Assembly (NCBI GenBank): GCA_012797815.1
Contig: JAAZOK010000047.1
Span: 1-64,000, forward strand
Reading direction: 5' to 3'
DNA from: Chloroflexota bacterium
GTDB lineage: Bacteria; Chloroflexota; Anaerolineae; Anaerolineales; Anaerolineaceae
DNA length: 64,000 nucleotides
Position numbers and translations under genes: made by a program. Each line of letters begins with the position of its first letter. Within the stretch, counting starts at the first letter, position 1. A model generated the notes under the pieces. It was not told where the DNA came from and did no database searches. It worked only from the letters and a program-made list of their open reading frames with translations. Of this stretch, positions 7,477 through 52,105 are shown piece after piece.

Positions 7477-8433
7477 TCACTCCTTCTTCCTGAACATCGT
7501 ATAGATCAAATATGCCAAACCGATCCCACAACCAATAATCAGAACGATCCCCAGCACTTCCCGATTTCCCTGGGTAACGATGGAATCGGAGTCTGACGCC
7601 TCAGTCTGGTTCTTGAGCGCCTGTGGAGTCTGCGGAGGAATGGGGGTGCGGGTTGGTGGCATAGGAGTGACGGTGGAGGTCATGGTAGGAGTTTGCGTAT
7701 ATGCCGCCCGAACATATAATTGCTGTCCCTCATAAATATTGGCTGTCTCGGATAGATTGTTCAAGATACGCAATTGATCAACGGTCACCCCATAAGTTAT
7801 GGCAATACTCCATAACGCCTGTCCTTTTTCAACGACATGGATAATCGAACCGTCTGTCTGGGGGGTAGCCACATCTACCGGCACCACTTCCGGGGTTTCT
7901 GTTCTGGAAGTAGCCAGCCCGGTGGGTGAAGAAGTATAGTCCACAACCACATTTAAGACATAATAAACCATGTCGTCCACCTGTGCCACGCCCGCCCCGA
8001 TCTGAATGCCATAGGGATGCAACATGACATTGGTGTGATCCGCATCGCCCCAGACGGAGTTGATCAGTTCATCCACAGTGGTACTGCTGCTAACCCCTGC
8101 CCAATTCTCCCTTACCTGGGTACCAGTGGTGAAGACATAACCGGCTTCCTCCGCACGGCTGGTGGCATCACTGCCATCAGTCCCAATATGCCCTTCTGTT
8201 TCTCCCGGGGGAGTTGCAGCATAGGTATTGGCCAGATAAGTGGCTTGATTCTGGGCAGCTGCCATCAGGTACACACTGGTCGATAAAGCGGCCACGTCAT
8301 TATCCGCGCGTAGCGAATTTACCGCGACGGTGAGATCATAGGCACCGACCGCTGCCTGCGCAGCTTTCGGTGAAACACCATTGATCGAAAAGAGCATAAG
8401 CACGCTGCAAATAAATAAAGCTAACTTCTTCAT
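7477..8433 (-). CDS. surface protein: CAP domain + LysM + C-terminal membrane anchor
   Basis: A signal peptide (KKLALFICSVLMLFSINGV) is followed by a CAP/SCP (YkwD-like) domain, residues 40-175, with AVNSLRADN, GHIGTDGSDATSRAEEAGY, ENWAG and the C-terminal VYYVLNVVVDY strand. One LysM repeat follows (IIHVVEKGQALWSIAITYGV ... IYEGQQLYVRA), then a Thr/Pro-rich linker and a terminal helix (VLGIVLIIGCGIGLAYLIYTMF) with a basic tail. The LysM would hold peptidoglycan and the helix the membrane. It is a paralogue of the gene immediately upstream on the same strand (30 bases away). A TATAAT lies exactly six bases before the ATG. Confidence 0.87.
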   Translation of the reverse strand: MKKLALFICSVLMLFSINGVSPKAAQAAVGAYDLTVAVNSLRADNDVAALSTSVYLMAAAQNQATYLANTYAATPPGETEGHIGTDGSDATSRAEEAGYVFTTGTQVRENWAGVSSSTTVDELINSVWGDADHTNVMLHPYGIQIGAGVAQVDDMVYYVLNVVVDYTSSPTGLATSRTETPEVVPVDVATPQTDGSIIHVVEKGQALWSIAITYGVTVDQLRILNNLSETANIYEGQQLYVRAAYTQTPTMTSTVTPMPPTRTPIPPQTPQALKNQTEASDSDSIVTQGNREVLGIVLIIGCGIGLAYLIYTMFRKKE

Positions 8434-8439
8434 GCTGGC

Positions 8440-8445
8440 ATTATA
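8440..8445 (-). promoter_or_regulatory. -10 element of a predicted leaderless promoter for the CAP-LysM gene
   Basis: On the minus strand TATAAT is followed by six bases (GCCAGC) and then the ATG at 8433. No ribosome binding site fits in that space, so transcription would begin at or next to the start codon. The -35 region is weak. Confidence 0.5.
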
Positions 8446-12824: not shown

Positions 12825-13093
12825 AAATCATAAACATGCGATGACGGAGCAAAGTAGATCATCGGAAACCAACAGGGATATCGGGGCATAGATTGAAACC
12901 CCGGTTTGGCAGAAAATGGTCGAAGTTCTCTCCCGAGCAGTCCGGGTGAAAGGATATCGATTAGTCTGGACCGCAGGTGCAGCGATAACGGCACAACCAA
13001 TCGAGTGAGACCGGTTGGTAAAAGAGTGGGCTGGTTTTCAGCCAATCAGGGTGGTACCGCGGATTACCCCGTCCCTTTGGACGGGGTTTTTTT
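12825..13093 (+). promoter_or_regulatory. T-box riboswitch (phenylalanine) controlling pheS-pheT
   Basis: The leader has the T-box hallmark AGGGTGGTACCGCGG (13048-13062), with the TGGTACC bulge that pairs with the acceptor end of uncharged tRNA. It is followed by a terminator of CCCCGTCC and GGACGGGG (13067-13074 with 13079-13086) and seven Ts. In stem I the sequence GAAGTTCTC (12922-12930) offers TTC (12926-12928) as the specifier, a phenylalanine codon that matches the downstream pheS and pheT genes. Uncharged tRNA-Phe would stabilise the antiterminator and let transcription continue. Confidence 0.93.
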
Positions 13094-34228: not shown

Positions 34229-34234
34229 TATAAT
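34229..34234 (+). promoter_or_regulatory. -10 element of a predicted leaderless transcript upstream of rpoD
   Basis: TATAAT is followed by six bases and then ATG (34241), the same spacing as at miaB, pncC and the CAP-LysM gene. The -35 region is weak (TTGGTG at 15 bases). Confidence 0.45.
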
Positions 34235-34240
34235 TCATTT

Positions 34241-34345
34241 ATGACCTCACACGAATCCATTTTGCAAAAAGGGGTTACTATTTCTGAATCGAATTACCTG
34301 CATTCTCATATTTCTTTTCAAATGATGGTGTCGAATAATGTCTGA
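34241..34345 (+). CDS. possible leaderless leader peptide overlapping the rpoD start (34 codons)
   Basis: An ATG six bases after TATAAT opens a 34-codon frame ([12 protein letters not shown] ... MMVSNNV) whose TGA (34343-34345) overlaps the rpoD start codon at 34338. rpoD itself has only a poor ribosome binding site (GGTG), so ribosomes ending the short frame could restart on rpoD. No similarity to a known peptide is evident. It may instead be a chance frame in a 5' untranslated region. Confidence 0.35.
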
Positions 34346-35858
34346 TTACATTGATGACGAATCCGATGATGAATTAGAATCCATTTCTTCTGCAGAAGAT
34401 AATGATAGTTTTGACGACGCGCTTGATGAAGCCGCCGACAAACACTCCCCCGCATTGGAATATTCGGAAGATCCTGTAAGGTTGTATCTAAAAGAAATAG
34501 GTCAAATTGACCTATTGGATGCCACCAATGAATTTCATCTTTCCACTCGTATTGAGGCTGATCGCCGCATTCGCAAACTAACCAATCAGATGCTGGCAAA
34601 AAAAGATGGTGAACAGGAGACTATTTACCAACAAGTTTTCCTGCAAATTTGCAGGGACCTTTCCATTTCTTATGCCAATGTGGAAAGTGTCACCGCCACC
34701 AAACCCGGATTGAACTTTCCCGATTTCAGTCTTATCCTTACCGAAGCACAAATGCTGCGTTCTCGCTGGAACATGGAAATTCCTTCCTATACCAGAGATT
34801 ATCTGAACACTTTTTGGCGGCAGAAGTTTTCTTCAGATGATTCATTGACAAATGAATTATTGACAGGGCTGATTCAAGAGATATATGCAATCTTCCTGGC
34901 ATGCTACCTACTGCCTGAAAATGTTGCCCAGGAATTACTCGAATACTACAGTGAGCAGCAACGCATCCCACGTTCAAATTTTTTCCAAAATCGGTTCCCG
35001 GAAGAAGCTGATTTAAAACAGATCATATCGGAGATCCATGGACTCTCCTACGAAGCCACCCAAGTATTGATTCGCGCCAATTTACGGTTGGTAGTCAGTG
35101 TGGCGAAGAAATATCTCGGACGCGGCATTTCTTTACTCGATCTCATTCAAGAAGGCAATCTGGGATTGCTGCGTGCGGTATCCAAATTCGATCCCACGCT
35201 GGGATATAAATTCAGCACCTACGCCACCTGGTGGATCAGGCAATCTATCAGCCGTCATATTGCCGAACAAGCGCGCACCATTCGCATCCCGGTGCACCTT
35301 TTTGAATCCATCTCCAAACTACTGCGCATCCAGCGCAAATTAACCCAGAATCTGAACCGCGACCCCACCTTTGAGGAACTGGCACTGGAATCAGAATTCA
35401 TCGAGAAACATGATGCTGACCGCATTAAGGAAGCTTTGCAATCCGATCAGTCTGTTCCGAAACAGCTGATGACAAAGTGGAAAAACGCGTCGCAAAAAGT
35501 ACAGCAGATCATGAAGTCTGCCGAGGAACCCATCTCATTGGAATATCCGGTTGGTGACGAGGATAGCAGCCAACTGGGTGATTTTATTGAAGATATTGAT
35601 GCTATCGAGCCAATGGATGCCGCCGCCAAGGAGATGTTAAGAGAACAGGTACAATCAGCGCTTTCCGCGTTATCGGAACGCGAGCGTCAAGTTTTAGAGC
35701 TTCGTTTCGGGTTATTGGATGGAAAAGACCATACCCTTGAAGAGGTGAGCAACTATTTCAATGTTACCCGCGAACGCATCCGCCAAATTGAAGCGAAAGC
35801 ATTACGGAAGCTGCGCCATCCTTCGCGCAGCCGTGATTTAAGAGAATATTTATCCTAA
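34338..35858 (+). CDS. rpoD: primary RNA polymerase sigma factor (sigma-70/RpoD)
   Basis: Region 1.2 ([16 protein letters not shown]) lies near residue 50. Region 2 ([59 protein letters not shown]) covers core binding and -10 recognition. Region 3 follows, and region 4 ([50 protein letters not shown]) reads the -35. The first 45 residues are strongly acidic. At 506 residues it is a housekeeping sigma factor. It follows dnaG as in the classical macromolecular-synthesis operon. Confidence 0.96.
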
Positions 35859-43289: not shown

Positions 43290-43295
43290 TATAAT
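43290..43295 (+). promoter_or_regulatory. -10 element of a predicted leaderless promoter for pncC
   Basis: TATAAT is followed by six bases and the ATG at 43302. No ribosome binding site is possible between them. The -35 region is weak. Confidence 0.5.
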
Positions 43296-43301
43296 CATGC
43301 T

Positions 43302-43811
43302 ATGACCGAAATGAAAATAGAAGAAATTATAGGAAAATTCTTATTACAAAATGGATTAAGCATTGCTACCGCAGAATCCTGCACGGGTGGACTGATTGCA
43401 AACCGGATCACCGATATTCCAGGCTCTTCCGAGTACTTTTTAGGAGGCGTAGTTAGTTATTCTTACGGAGCCAAGATGAATTGGCTCGGGGTGAAAGAAA
43501 AGACCCTTGCCGATTTTGGCGCGGTCAGTCAGGAGACGGTCCGCGAGATGGCATTAGGACTGGTGCAAATGCTTGATCCGATTTGCGATCCAGCGCGTTT
43601 AATGACAATTGCAGTTTCAGGCATTGCCGGTCCGGGCGGAGGAACTTCGCTCAAACCGGTTGGAACAGTGTGGATGGCTTGGGCATTTAATGGGAAGGTG
43701 AATACTTCATTGTTTCAATTTCACGGAGAGCGAACATCCGTTAAAGCACAAAGCGCCGACCAGGCTTTGAACGGCGCTTTACAATTCCTGCAAGAAGAAC
43801 TCGGAAGCTAA
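43302..43811 (+). CDS. pncC: nicotinamide-nucleotide amidohydrolase (CinA C-terminal domain)
   Basis: The 169-residue protein consists only of the CinA C-terminal domain, which deamidates NMN in pyridine-nucleotide recycling. SIATAESCTGGLIANRITDIPGSSEYF, GVVSYSYGAKMNWLGV and AVSGIAGPGGGTSLKPVGTVW are all family hallmarks. The N-terminal MoaB-like domain of full-length CinA is absent, as in stand-alone PncC. ATG 43302 is six bases after a TATAAT; an ATG at 43311 is an alternative. Its stop shares four bases with the convergent metG stop. Confidence 0.93.
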   Translation: MTEMKIEEIIGKFLLQNGLSIATAESCTGGLIANRITDIPGSSEYFLGGVVSYSYGAKMNWLGVKEKTLADFGAVSQETVREMALGLVQMLDPICDPARLMTIAVSGIAGPGGGTSLKPVGTVWMAWAFNGKVNTSLFQFHGERTSVKAQSADQALNGALQFLQEELGS

Positions 43812-45742: not shown

Positions 45743-45755
45743 CAAGCCGTATTGT

Positions 45756-45966
45756 ATTCTGGTGTCCTCTCCCCGGATAGAAGGACACAATGGCGAAACC
45801 GGTGCTCTAGGAATAGAAAGTCCGGTGCTGTCCCGCAACTGTAAGGTTACCAAACCAAGCCAGGTCGACCGCCAGAATGAAAACAACTCACACACTCTCG
45901 TGGATAGGAGGTGACCGGTGCCCATAACTTACCAAGCATGATCTGTCAAATAGCGGCAGATTTTTC
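45756..45966 (+). promoter_or_regulatory. cobalamin riboswitch with terminator, upstream of btuFCD
   Basis: P1 is closed by ATTCTGG (45756-45762) and CCAGAAT (45872-45878). The conserved core reads AAGTCCGGTGCTGTCCCGC, then AACTGTAAGG, and ends with the B12 box AAGCCAGGTCGACCGCC (45857-45873). Downstream, ATCTGTC and GGCAGAT form a hairpin followed by TTTTT (about 45941-45965), an intrinsic terminator. Adenosylcobalamin binding would stop transcription before the transporter genes. Confidence 0.95.
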
Positions 45967-45991: not shown

Positions 45992-46930
45992 ATGAAAAGA
46001 AAATTTTATATTTTTCTATCTTTCGTTGTCATTGGTTTAACCCTGGTCGGTTGTGGCACTGCTCCTTCTGAAGGAACCGTCGCAGAACAAACAGCAGAAA
46101 TAAGCCTGGTGGATGGGCTCGGACGTACGGTTACGTTAAGCAGTCCGGCAACCAGCATTGTCTCATTATCTCCTTCCAATACCGAACTGCTTTATGCGGT
46201 GGGTGCAGGGGATATGATGGTAGGCAGAGATTCCTTTTCCGATTATCCGGAGGGGGTAAGTGATCTGCCAGATATCGGAGGCGGCTATTCTGAATATAAC
46301 CTCGAGATGCTGGTCGATATGGATCCTGACCTGGTGTTAGCCGCCGAGATCAACACAGCCGAATTGGTGCAATCCATTGAAGACCTTGGTATTACGGTTT
46401 TCTACATCAGCAATCCAATTGTACTGGATGACCTGTACACCACTATCGAGAACGTCGGGATTTTAACAGGGAATGAGGAGAATGCGCAACAGTTGATCGA
46501 GCAATCCAAACAACGGGTAGAAATGGTAGTTGATGCCATATCTCAAGTGGAGAACACGCCAGTGGTATTTTATGAGCTGGACGCGACGGATCCTACCAAA
46601 CCCTATACGCCTGGTCCTGATACTTTCTACAGCACTTTGATCAACATGGCAGGTGGAAAGAACCTCGGTGATTCCTTATCCGCATCCTGGGCGCAAATCA
46701 GTCTTGAAGAACTGGTCCTTCAAGATCCCGACCTTATTCTGCTGGGAGATGCGGTATGGGGCATTACTCCCGAAAGTGTGGGGGAACGAGAAGGATGGAA
46801 TACCCTGACCGCCGTACAACAGGGAAATGTGTTGCCCTTCGATGATAATCTGCTGGCACGTCCCGGGCCGCGATTGATCGACGGTTTGGAAGCGCTGGCG
46901 CAAGCGATCCACCCAGAGGCTTTTAAATAG
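45992..46930 (+). CDS. btuF: cobalamin/corrinoid ABC transporter substrate-binding lipoprotein
   Basis: The signal peptide KRKFYIFLSFVVIGLTLVGC ends in a lipobox Cys at about residue 21, so the protein is a membrane-tethered binding protein. The two-lobed class III fold is indicated by ATSIVSLSPSNTELLYAVGAGDMMVGRDSFSDYP, DLVLAAEINTAELVQSIEDLGI and the long linking helix. The B12 riboswitch upstream fixes the ligand as cobalamin or a precursor. The stop overlaps the btuC start by one base. Confidence 0.93.
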   Translation: MKRKFYIFLSFVVIGLTLVGCGTAPSEGTVAEQTAEISLVDGLGRTVTLSSPATSIVSLSPSNTELLYAVGAGDMMVGRDSFSDYPEGVSDLPDIGGGYSEYNLEMLVDMDPDLVLAAEINTAELVQSIEDLGITVFYISNPIVLDDLYTTIENVGILTGNEENAQQLIEQSKQRVEMVVDAISQVENTPVVFYELDATDPTKPYTPGPDTFYSTLINMAGGKNLGDSLSASWAQISLEELVLQDPDLILLGDAVWGITPESVGEREGWNTLTAVQQGNVLPFDDNLLARPGPRLIDGLEALAQAIHPEAFK

Positions 46931-49423: not shown

Positions 49424-50713
49424 CTAGTTCGCCGTAACATAATCGATCGCCCACAACGCGTCCTCATAATCATCACGAATCTTCAAAGCATCGCGGAAAT
49501 AATTCAAAGCAGTGCTCTTATCTCCCATCTGGTAGAATGCCCAACCGCGCCACAACATCGCTTCTTCAGAAGTACGTGAAATATCCAGGGCATATTTGGT
49601 TAGTGTAACCAAATCATCCGTTCTGGCAACTTGAAAATATGCGATAAAAGGTCCAAACTGATAGCGCAACATGCGTTGCGGCAACCCGATGCTACGGGCT
49701 GTATCATATGCCTGGGCTGCCTCTGAATAACGCTGGAAATAAGTTAAGTTAGTGCCCTGATTGAACCAGGCGAAAGCATTCTGCGGATCATCCTGGGTTT
49801 CTTGTTGAGATATCGCCAGAGCATGCTCACGATTTTTATCTACATCCCAATTCTCTCCGAGGATGTTTTTCAACAGGTCTTCCTGTTCAGCGCGGTAAAC
49901 GATGATGTACACCCGATTAAAACCCTGCCAGCGATCATTCAAAATATCGTAGTTGATCGATTGGTTGGGTCCAATTTCAGAATCCTGTGCGGTGAAAGTG
50001 CGGGTTATATCGTTATAGCCGGTGATCAGCAGATAATGCCCTGACCAAAGATCATCTTCCGGCCAATACTGGCGGTCGGTGGTAAATGATTCTTCAATCA
50101 TCACCGGGAAACCGGCTGCCAACAATTTTTTCAGCAGGTCGATATCTCCGCCTACTCTGAATTCAGCCTTCAGCCAACCGGAATAATTGCGAACGTAATA
50201 TACCAGCTCTTCCACGTTGACATTGCGGTCGTCACGGGTCGGCTTTACGATCTGGGAAATATCATACTGGTCACCTTCCCACCCGTAATATCGTAAGGTG
50301 AGCGCCAGCGTTGCCGGTCCGCAGTTATTCCAGTCTTGCTTATCCTTCGCTTCATCATAAGCCGGAGGAGTCAGCAGGGTCTTTTCTGCGATGGGGGTCG
50401 GTACCAGTGTAGGAGTAGGAGATACCAGTGGGGTGGGAGTGCTGGTAGCTGGCGGAGGCGTAGCAGAAGGCAGCGCCGCGACCGGTGCAGTAGAGCGACT
50501 CACCATAGGAGCCGGAAGACTTTCAACCGGATTAAAAAGGCGGTGGATATAGGTTTGTGCCAGGTCAATGCGCCAGCTCAACAAGCGCTTCACCCTGGGA
50601 ATCTGGTAAAGACCGAAACTCAGCAAAACGACCAAACTGATCAGAATAAGGATATTCAACCCTTTTCTGCTTTTCTTCTTATTCTTATATGGAATATATT
50701 CAGGATATTGCAT
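49424..50713 (-). CDS. membrane-anchored C39-like peptidase with TPR repeats
   Basis: One N-terminal helix (GLNILILISLVVLLSFGLYQI) is followed by a Pro/Thr-rich linker. A C39-like domain has WNNCGPATLALTLRYYG (catalytic Cys) and LWSGHYLLITGYND (catalytic His), then FTAQDSEIGPN. At least three TPR-like helical pairs follow (about residues 290-425, e.g. AFAWFNQGTNLTYFQRYSEAAQAYDTA and EEAMLWRGWAFYQMGDKSTALNYFRDAL). It probably sits outside the membrane and cuts or binds peptides. On the minus strand TAAAAT lies six bases before the ATG. Confidence 0.85.
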   Translation of the reverse strand: MQYPEYIPYKNKKKSRKGLNILILISLVVLLSFGLYQIPRVKRLLSWRIDLAQTYIHRLFNPVESLPAPMVSRSTAPVAALPSATPPPATSTPTPLVSPTPTLVPTPIAEKTLLTPPAYDEAKDKQDWNNCGPATLALTLRYYGWEGDQYDISQIVKPTRDDRNVNVEELVYYVRNYSGWLKAEFRVGGDIDLLKKLLAAGFPVMIEESFTTDRQYWPEDDLWSGHYLLITGYNDITRTFTAQDSEIGPNQSINYDILNDRWQGFNRVYIIVYRAEQEDLLKNILGENWDVDKNREHALAISQQETQDDPQNAFAWFNQGTNLTYFQRYSEAAQAYDTARSIGLPQRMLRYQFGPFIAYFQVARTDDLVTLTKYALDISRTSEEAMLWRGWAFYQMGDKSTALNYFRDALKIRDDYEDALWAIDYVTAN

Positions 50714-50719
50714 GCCGCT

Positions 50720-50725
50720 ATTTTA
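50720..50725 (-). promoter_or_regulatory. -10 element of a predicted leaderless promoter for the C39-TPR gene
   Basis: On the minus strand TAAAAT is followed by six bases and the ATG at 50713. The spacing equals that of the divergent miaB promoter. The -35 region is weak. Confidence 0.4.
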
Positions 50726-50751
50726 CCTTATCCGCGCAGGTTCTAATAGGA

Positions 50752-50779
50752 TTGAAATAGTCTGAATTATTGATATAAT
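50752..50779 (+). promoter_or_regulatory. promoter of miaB, predicted leaderless
   Basis: TTGAAA (50752-50757), 16 bases, TATAAT (50774-50779) with an extended TGA before it. The ATG (50786) lies six bases after the -10, so the transcript should begin at the start codon. No ribosome binding site is present. Confidence 0.65.
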
Positions 50780-50785
50780 CGCCGC

Positions 50786-52105
50786 ATGCGTTACCATGTT
50801 TGGACAGAAGGTTGTCAAATGAATGTAGCCGATTCCATCCGGCTTTCTTCTGCTTTGGAGCAGATCGGTTACTTGCCTGCAGGTCAACCCGAGCAAGCGG
50901 ATGTGATCGTTCTAAACACCTGTGTGGTTCGGCAAAGCGCAGAAGATAAAGCCGTTGGCAGACTTTCATCATTGAAGAAAATGAAGGAGCAACATCCCGA
51001 AAAGACTATCTGCTTGATGGGTTGCATGGTCGGAGTGGGTGACACCACTCCGCTGAAGAAGCGCTTCCCTTATGTAGATATATTCTCTGCTCCTTCCGAT
51101 ATCACCGCTGTGCTCGATTATTTGCTGAAAATGGAAAAGGTTCCCTCTGAAGATCTACGCGCCACCGCACAGCTCATTCTCGATAAGGATGAGGATTTCA
51201 TCCTGCCGGCAGAAATGCGCGGAAATGCCGTATCCGCTTTCGTGCCGATCGTGCTGGGATGTTCGCATGCTTGCAGCTATTGTGTGATCCCGTTACGGAG
51301 AGGGAAAGAGATCAGCCGCCCGCCGCAAGAAATCCTATCCGAAGTTCGGGCTCTGGCTGATCAGGGCATCAAAGAAGTGACATTGCTGGGGCAGATCGTG
51401 GACCGCTATGGACAAGATGATGCCTCCTATCCAACCCTGGCAGAATTGCTACGCCAGATTCACCAGGTGGAAGGCATCCAGCGCATTCGCTTTCTCACTT
51501 CGCATCCCAACTGGATGACAGACGAACTGCTGGATAGGATACAGGAACTGCCAAAAGTCATGCCCCATTTTGAACTCCCCATCCAAGCCGGCGACGATGA
51601 AGTCCTGCGCAGAATGCATCGAGGGTACACCAGCGAAAAATATCTGACGATCGTGGCAAAGATCCGCGCCCGTTTCCCGGTTTCTTCCATTGCCACAGAT
51701 CTGATCGTTGGTTTTCCGGGTGAGACAGCCGAACAATTCCAACACTCATTAGACATATTAATGCTGGCTAAACCAGATATGACCCATGTAGCCAGGTACT
51801 CCCCCCGCCCGGGCACCTACTCCACCCGCCATATGCAAGATGACGTCAGCAATGCTGAAAAATGGGAACGGTTCAGAGCAATAGAACGCCTGCAAGAGCA
51901 GATCACAACCAGCATCAACGCACAATACTTACACAACAGAGTCAGTGTTCTTTTTGAAGGATGTAAAAAAGAGCGCTGGTATGGTAGAACTCCTACCAAC
52001 AAACTGGTTTTCGTGGAATCACCCACGTCCCTGATTGGAAAGATCGAAGACGTGACTATCACATGGACAGGACCCTGGTCGATGATCGGGGATATAGCGC
52101 AGTAG
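50786..52105 (+). CDS. miaB: tRNA-2-methylthio-N6-dimethylallyladenosine synthase (MiaB family)
   Basis: A radical-SAM methylthiotransferase for A37 of tRNA. The N-terminal domain supplies three cluster cysteines (TEGCQMN, NTCVVR, MGCMVG). The radical-SAM motif is CSHACSYCVIPLRRG (C-x3-C-x2-C) near residue 158. The C-terminal TRAM domain (about 370-439) is present. At 439 residues it is normal. RimO- or MtaB-type specificity is less likely because of the overall pattern. The promoter places the ATG at the transcript start. Confidence 0.9.
   Translation: MRYHVWTEGCQMNVADSIRLSSALEQIGYLPAGQPEQADVIVLNTCVVRQSAEDKAVGRLSSLKKMKEQHPEKTICLMGCMVGVGDTTPLKKRFPYVDIFSAPSDITAVLDYLLKMEKVPSEDLRATAQLILDKDEDFILPAEMRGNAVSAFVPIVLGCSHACSYCVIPLRRGKEISRPPQEILSEVRALADQGIKEVTLLGQIVDRYGQDDASYPTLAELLRQIHQVEGIQRIRFLTSHPNWMTDELLDRIQELPKVMPHFELPIQAGDDEVLRRMHRGYTSEKYLTIVAKIRARFPVSSIATDLIVGFPGETAEQFQHSLDILMLAKPDMTHVARYSPRPGTYSTRHMQDDVSNAEKWERFRAIERLQEQITTSINAQYLHNRVSVLFEGCKKERWYGRTPTNKLVFVESPTSLIGKIEDVTITWTGPWSMIGDIAQ

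Follow-up and report, generated by a model that had tools for sequence, protein, structure and literature searches.

The question raised by this locus is whether a -10 hexamer placed almost against a start codon marks a separate class of translation starts. The window, i.e. the whole stretch of 64,000 nucleotides analysed here, belongs to the 2.72-Mb assembly (179 contigs) of an uncultured member of the Anaerolineaceae (Chloroflexota). An earlier note had drawn attention to five hexamers lying exactly six bases ahead of an ATG (N6, the figure giving the bases between hexamer and start codon), and had proposed them as a real class lacking a Shine-Dalgarno (SD) site. All five arrangements are present in the window, as listed below, and the gene names of all five sites are borne out by Pfam domains.

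50774..50779, + strand: -10 hexamer of miaB, TATAAT, preceded by TGA (extended -10), with the ATG six bases on
50786..52105, + strand: miaB, tRNA-modifying enzyme with UPF0004, radical SAM and TRAM domains (PF00919, PF04055, PF01938)
50714..50785, no strand: divergent intergenic region between miaB and C39-TPR, 72 bp, with both promoters inside (from the sequence)
50720..50725, - strand: -10 hexamer of C39-TPR, TAAAAT, with the ATG at 50713
49424..50713, - strand: gene of a C39-peptidase-like TPR protein, divergent from miaB (PF13529, PF07719)
34229..34234, + strand: -10 hexamer of the rpoD transcript, TATAAT, with the leader-frame ATG at 34241
34241..34345, + strand: leader ORF of 34 codons, putatively leaderless, whose stop overlaps the rpoD start (from the sequence)
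34338..35858, + strand: rpoD, primary-type sigma factor (Sigma70 regions 1.2, 2, 3 and 4, Pfam)
43290..43295, + strand: -10 hexamer of pncC, TATAAT, with the ATG at 43302
43302..43811, + strand: pncC, CinA C-terminal family (PF02464)
8440..8445, - strand: -10 hexamer of CAP-LysM, TATAAT, with the ATG at 8433
7477..8433, - strand: CAP-LysM gene, with the signal-peptide-like start MKKLALFICSVLMLFS (PF00188, PF01476)

The miaB ATG at 50786 is the first start codon past the upstream stop, and A50786 is the predicted 5' end of the transcript. Among the five sites, only that of miaB has TGN before the hexamer; a TG extension as a general rule is not supported either, being found in 4 of 34 candidates of the source genome. 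The window also holds two known leader elements, a T-box leader (12832-13079; Rfam RF00230, 105.9 bits) and a cobalamin riboswitch (45743-45890; Rfam RF00174, 61.1 bits) upstream of the gene at 45992.

Frequency and spacing of the arrangement

In the window, TATAAT-N6-ATG occurs four times against 0.60 expected, and none of 100 shuffled sequences reaches four; genome-wide it occurs 41 times, compared with 13 for the reversed control. The looser TANNNT-N6-ATG is not enriched in the window (29 vs. 31.5 expected), and the genome-wide count of TANNNT, which had been suggested as a check, gave 1050 vs. 1037 in the control, again without enrichment. TANNNT is thus ruled out as the signature of the class, since it shows no excess in window or genome, and only the full TATAAT gives a signal. 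Other spacings are also in excess genome-wide: 110 vs. 48 for N6-8, 144 vs. 76 for N7-11 and, for N1-5, 102 vs. 55 in the control. The spacing of exactly six bases, on which the original proposal had laid weight, is consequently no rule, as neighbouring spacings are enriched, the miaB and rpoD homologues vary, and the class spans about N6-10; the fixed six bases of the window are a local coincidence.

The size of the class was estimated from a sample of 1.53 Mb of the genome, window included, in which 1323 genes were called by means of a home-made hexamer coding model and not a standard gene caller. A subset of 954 genes was formed by leaving out the window and the contigs picked for N6 matches, and is slightly biased towards the N1-5 and N7-11 spacings, some of its contigs having been taken from those lists. 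In this subset TATAAT precedes an in-frame ATG at N6, N7, N8, N9 and N10 in 2, 7, 8, 5 and 3 cases, respectively, the controls giving three in all at N0-5, three at N11-16 and one out of frame at N6-10. The excess amounts to about 22 of the 954 genes, or about 2-3% of genes: the class of starts is real, small, and spans about N6-10.

Two of the counts would suit the view that these are AT-rich hexamers falling near starts by chance and picked out by the reader, namely the lack of enrichment of TANNNT-N6-ATG and the density of the window, whose four TATAAT-N6-ATG sites exceed the genome mean (41 in 2.72 Mb, or about one for every 64 kb). Against it stand the excess of TATAAT, both genome-wide and in frame, and the conservation that four of the five sites show in the family, so that chance is hardly credible as an explanation.

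SD sites had been described as common elsewhere, and this holds: an SD 5-mer is found at -18 to -5 in 18 of 60 window genes (5 of 60 in the control region) and in 472 of 1277 sampled genes, compared with 83 in the control region. An SD 4-mer at the called start is present in 651 of the 1277, which leaves about half of the genes without one.

The arrangement is not confined to the source genome. When TATAAT-N6-8-ATG and its reversed control were counted in 201 genomes, the totals were 580 vs. 205 in the own family (5 genomes), 1742 vs. 250 in another family of the same order (12 genomes), 244 vs. 34 in 8 other genomes of the class and 4848 vs. 2576 in 176 genomes of other classes. An excess of at least two-fold with at least 20 sites was seen in 5/5, 12/12, 5/8 and 41/176 of these genomes, respectively.

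Conservation of miaB and its divergent neighbour

The miaB gene was followed in 80 Anaerolineae loci chosen on protein similarity alone. An exact TATAAT lies at most 70 nt upstream in 80/80 homologues, and in 77 of them it stands at N6-9 before an in-frame ATG or GTG (N6 5, N7 54, N8 11, N9 7), the layout being found in 5 of 332 other genes on the same loci. TGN precedes the hexamer in 64 of the 80, and the motif is present in Pelolinea submarina (L066), Bellilinea caldifistulae and Longilinea arvoryzae. Information content ahead of the hexamer is low, mostly below 0.35 bits per position from -40 to -5 and at most 0.23 bits anywhere from -40 to -20, which means that the flanks have diverged and that the set shows no -35 element. 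The spacer between TATAAT and start is 76% G+C in 86 leaderless loci, a GC-rich discriminator, while that of rpoD is AT-rich.

The addition of 21 class members from a search of the phylum, and the removal of 2 duplicates from the resulting 101, gave 99 distinct loci: 84 are leaderless by layout (TATAAT at N6-10; N6 5, N7 54, N8 15, N9 9, N10 1) and 15 are led. Layout and SD site nearly exclude each other in these sequences, an SD-like 4-mer being present in 2/84 leaderless vs. 12/15 led loci (Fisher p 4e-11, species not being independent). Ten of the 15 led loci have a TATAAT displaced to 25-69 nt upstream, each of them accompanied by an SD motif; the other five have no TATAAT, and an SD motif in two cases. 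Nine of the ten displaced cases fall in one clade of the tree, intermixed with leaderless members, and the remaining one, L200, sits among other families of the class. Seven changes of state are required on the tree, at least three of which are forced by well-supported branches; a tree-based sign test on the miaB states did not reach significance. Outside the class most miaB loci are without the layout, a qualitative statement based on the 44 loci of L182-L250 whose N-terminus matches the motif filter. Almost all relatives examined thus appear to have a leaderless miaB, and part of one family has an SD-led one, in which a longer leader separates an unchanged TATAAT from the ATG; the evolutionary switch between initiation modes can in this way be observed directly. 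The related methylthiotransferase gene rimO was considered as a second conserved case and rejected: the layout occurs in 1/27 homologues, that of the window's own genome only (the raw score was 3/29, with L399 and L400 set aside as miaB by place and identity).

The conservation could be read otherwise if the TATAATs were ordinary promoters whose transcripts begin inside the annotated gene, the true start codon lying downstream behind a normal leader. A start caller based on coding potential did place miaB at 50819 and rpoD at 34338. The miaB start codon cannot lie further in, however, because the UPF0004 domain (PF00919) begins at residue 2 of MiaB, and almost every homologue has the conserved TEGCQMN among its first 13 residues. 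Moreover, the spacings N6-9 cover three frames, yet the start tracks the hexamer, and three loci (L098, L101 and L110) use an upstream ATG 9 nt from TATAAT, which replaces a TTG at the usual start. A downstream start is hence very improbable. Gene annotation can also be corrected by the leaderless starts, since coding-potential callers easily misplace the rpoD start in the family, as well as those of CAP-LysM and miaB.

The divergent C39-TPR gene shows a similar picture: depending on the zone searched, 18-20 of its 26 scored family loci have TANAAT at N6-8, and 2 of the 26 have an SD site. Among the 97 miaB loci whose upstream sequence is long enough, 29 have the divergent pair (median intergenic distance 94 nt), and a near-consensus -10 box, TANAAT, stands at N6-9 of C39-TPR in 26 of the 29. 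The compact divergent layout was rejected as the cause of miaB leaderlessness, the partner being present in only those 29 loci and most miaB genes being leaderless. As a separate observation, the two divergent boxes differ across species, with an exact TATAAT for miaB and almost always TA[ACG]AAT for C39-TPR; judging by these hexamers, the strengths of the two promoters look as if they were held apart.

rpoD with its leader ORF, pncC and CAP-LysM

Of the 29 family homologues of rpoD from outside the source genome, 25 have a TATA-type box 5-9 nt before the in-frame ATG (N5 1, N6 12, N7 10, N8 1, N9 1). Both the motif TATA[ACGT][TA] and the N5-9 range behind this count were chosen once the sequences had been seen. 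The stricter count, allowing at most one mismatch, gives 2, 8, 8, 1 and 1 cases in frame at N5-9, with three at other in-frame spacings and one out of frame as controls. None of the 25 loci with a box has an SD site, and in other families of the order the layout is found in 0-1 of 11. Many Anaerolineaceae (L342-L369) carry the string TATGG-TATAGT-TAA directly before the rpoD ATG, which exceeds a plain -10 box and may, from its sequence, hold extra regulatory information.

In the genus of the window the situation is different, and the leader frame before rpoD, which the earlier note had listed, proved a good lead: TATAAT-N6-ATG is kept in 5/5 genus members (the window and its four congeners, L401-L404), and the ATG opens not rpoD itself, but a short ORF of 34, 32, 32, 25 and 32 codons. 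No SD site precedes the rpoD start of the window. Counted from base one of rpoD, the stop of the ORF ends at +7, 0, 0, -7 and -3 nt, the sequence reading TAATG in two of the cases; in all five the distance is thus no more than 12 nt. Shuffled leaders end so near with frequencies of 0.16, 0.056, 0.048, 0.048 and 0.045 per species; given these 5-16%, and since the species are related, the end position is only suggestive. The peptide sequence is conserved between close pairs only. An assembly error behind the leader frame is unlikely, 5/5 genus members being without an in-frame extension. Translational coupling between this leader ORF, itself leaderless, and rpoD is the likeliest reading of these features in the genus.

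The two other sites are those of pncC and CAP-LysM. Of 29 family homologues of pncC, counting that of the window's own genome, five have the leaderless layout; none of the five has an SD site, and 15 of the other 24 have one. For CAP-LysM, TATAAT lies at N5-10 in 19 of 27 family homologues and an SD site in 0/27, the gene being multi-copy and the 27 therefore including paralogues. Taken together, real starts do exist at which a -10 box adjoins the start codon and an SD site is absent, cross-species conservation showing that they are maintained.

Proposed initiation mode and comparison with known systems

The start codons themselves give an indication of where transcription begins. Of the 84 leaderless miaB loci, 77 have a C or T at base -1 of the start, compared with 229 of 420 bases at -2 to -6, and base -1 of the rpoD start is a pyrimidine in 24 of 25 loci. 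Transcription usually initiates at a purine that follows a pyrimidine (+1 and -1, respectively), and for this reason the A of the ATG is likely to be +1; the modal N7 spacing of miaB leaves room for a leader of one nucleotide.

These data also bear on the view that transcription comes from further upstream, with an unstructured leader and SD-less translation (by S1 or A/U-rich sequence), the TATAAT being secondary or inactive. SD-less led starts may exist in this genome, because about half of the genes are without an SD 4-mer at the called start (651/1277 have one). Such a view would have to account for an invariant TATAAT amid diverged flanks in miaB, for the SD site that accompanies the displaced TATAAT in 10/10 cases and for the pyrimidine at -1 in both miaB and rpoD, and it is regarded as improbable. 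Very probably, as far as comparison of the sequences can tell, the five sites form a class of transcription units that are leaderless or have a leader of 1-3 nt.

In the mechanism proposed, a sigma-70-type -10 box 6-9 nt ahead of an ATG or GTG would cause RNA polymerase to initiate at, or adjoining, the first base of the start codon. The resulting mRNA would have no SD site, and the ribosome would bind the 5'-terminal AUG directly, translation beginning there. Such a start would have been long retained in miaB, C39-TPR and rpoD, with pncC varying among relatives, some of them SD-led. In the led form of miaB, an otherwise preserved TATAAT lies further upstream, with an SD site in the longer leader. 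Box position, conservation, near-exclusion with SD sites and the pyrimidine/purine signature are visible in the sequences; where the RNA really begins, how the ribosome binds it and whether leaderless starts bring a regulatory benefit are inferred.

A more far-reaching proposal holds that selection in the Anaerolineaceae has locked leaderless initiation onto rpoD and miaB as particular parts of the gene-expression machinery, that leaderlessness is itself regulatory, and that rpoD of the window's genus is a two-step device. Ribosomes might, for example, translate leaderless mRNAs differently under stress or, alternatively, the promoter's initiating nucleotide and the start codon might be the same bases; in the two-step device, the leaderless leader peptide would be made first and rpoD afterwards, by termination-reinitiation at the overlapping stop and start. 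This larger scheme is tentative and, on balance, doubtful. A leaderless rpoD, if true, would tie the main sigma factor to an SD-independent route of translation.

Leaderless genes are usually counted per genome; here single genes can be tracked. What seems most worth following is the long-term leaderless state of miaB, C39-TPR and rpoD, as well as the switch of miaB to an SD-led start behind a displaced TATAAT. In the open-licence literature no report was found that names miaB or rpoD among genes whose leaderless state is conserved in this phylum, nor any paper on transcription start sites in Anaerolineae.

The earlier note had likened the class to those of Actinobacteria and Deinococcus-Thermus, an apt comparison, although the Chloroflexi themselves provide the closer precedent (PMC3160421, in the portion available). 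According to the available sections of that survey, leaderless genes were predicted in 4 of 12 Chloroflexi genomes, at 4.7% of genes on average, the bacterial leaderless class carries its TA-like signal some 12 bp upstream of the start, and medium-GC groups including Chloroflexi follow the consensus TAtaaT, not TAnnnT (Zheng et al. 2011, PMC3160421). The present class is alike in signal, position and absence of SD, its first T lying 12-15 nt upstream at N6-9. Unlike that genome-level survey, miaB and rpoD were followed here gene by gene, and neither is named as a conserved leaderless gene of Chloroflexi in those sections (PMC3160421). The leaderless class is thus already known in Chloroflexi at genome level, and the gene-specific conservation goes beyond it.

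In Deinococcus-Thermus, as described in the accessible part of the source, a -10 box about 6-7 bp before the ORF is conserved among homologues within a genus and has been promoter-tested (PMC12340547). The present boxes are likewise near the ORF and kept among homologues. D. radiodurans uses TANNNT / TACACT before nearly a third of its genes (PMC12340547, same part), whereas here the hexamer is a near-exact TATAAT and the share roughly 2-3%. Finally, in mycobacteria a 5'-terminal ATG or GTG is enough for translation, and leaderless small ORFs overlap the next start, as stated in the available part of PMC4633059; those coupled small ORFs were demonstrated by experiment, whereas the rpoD leader ORF is their predicted counterpart in the genus of the window.
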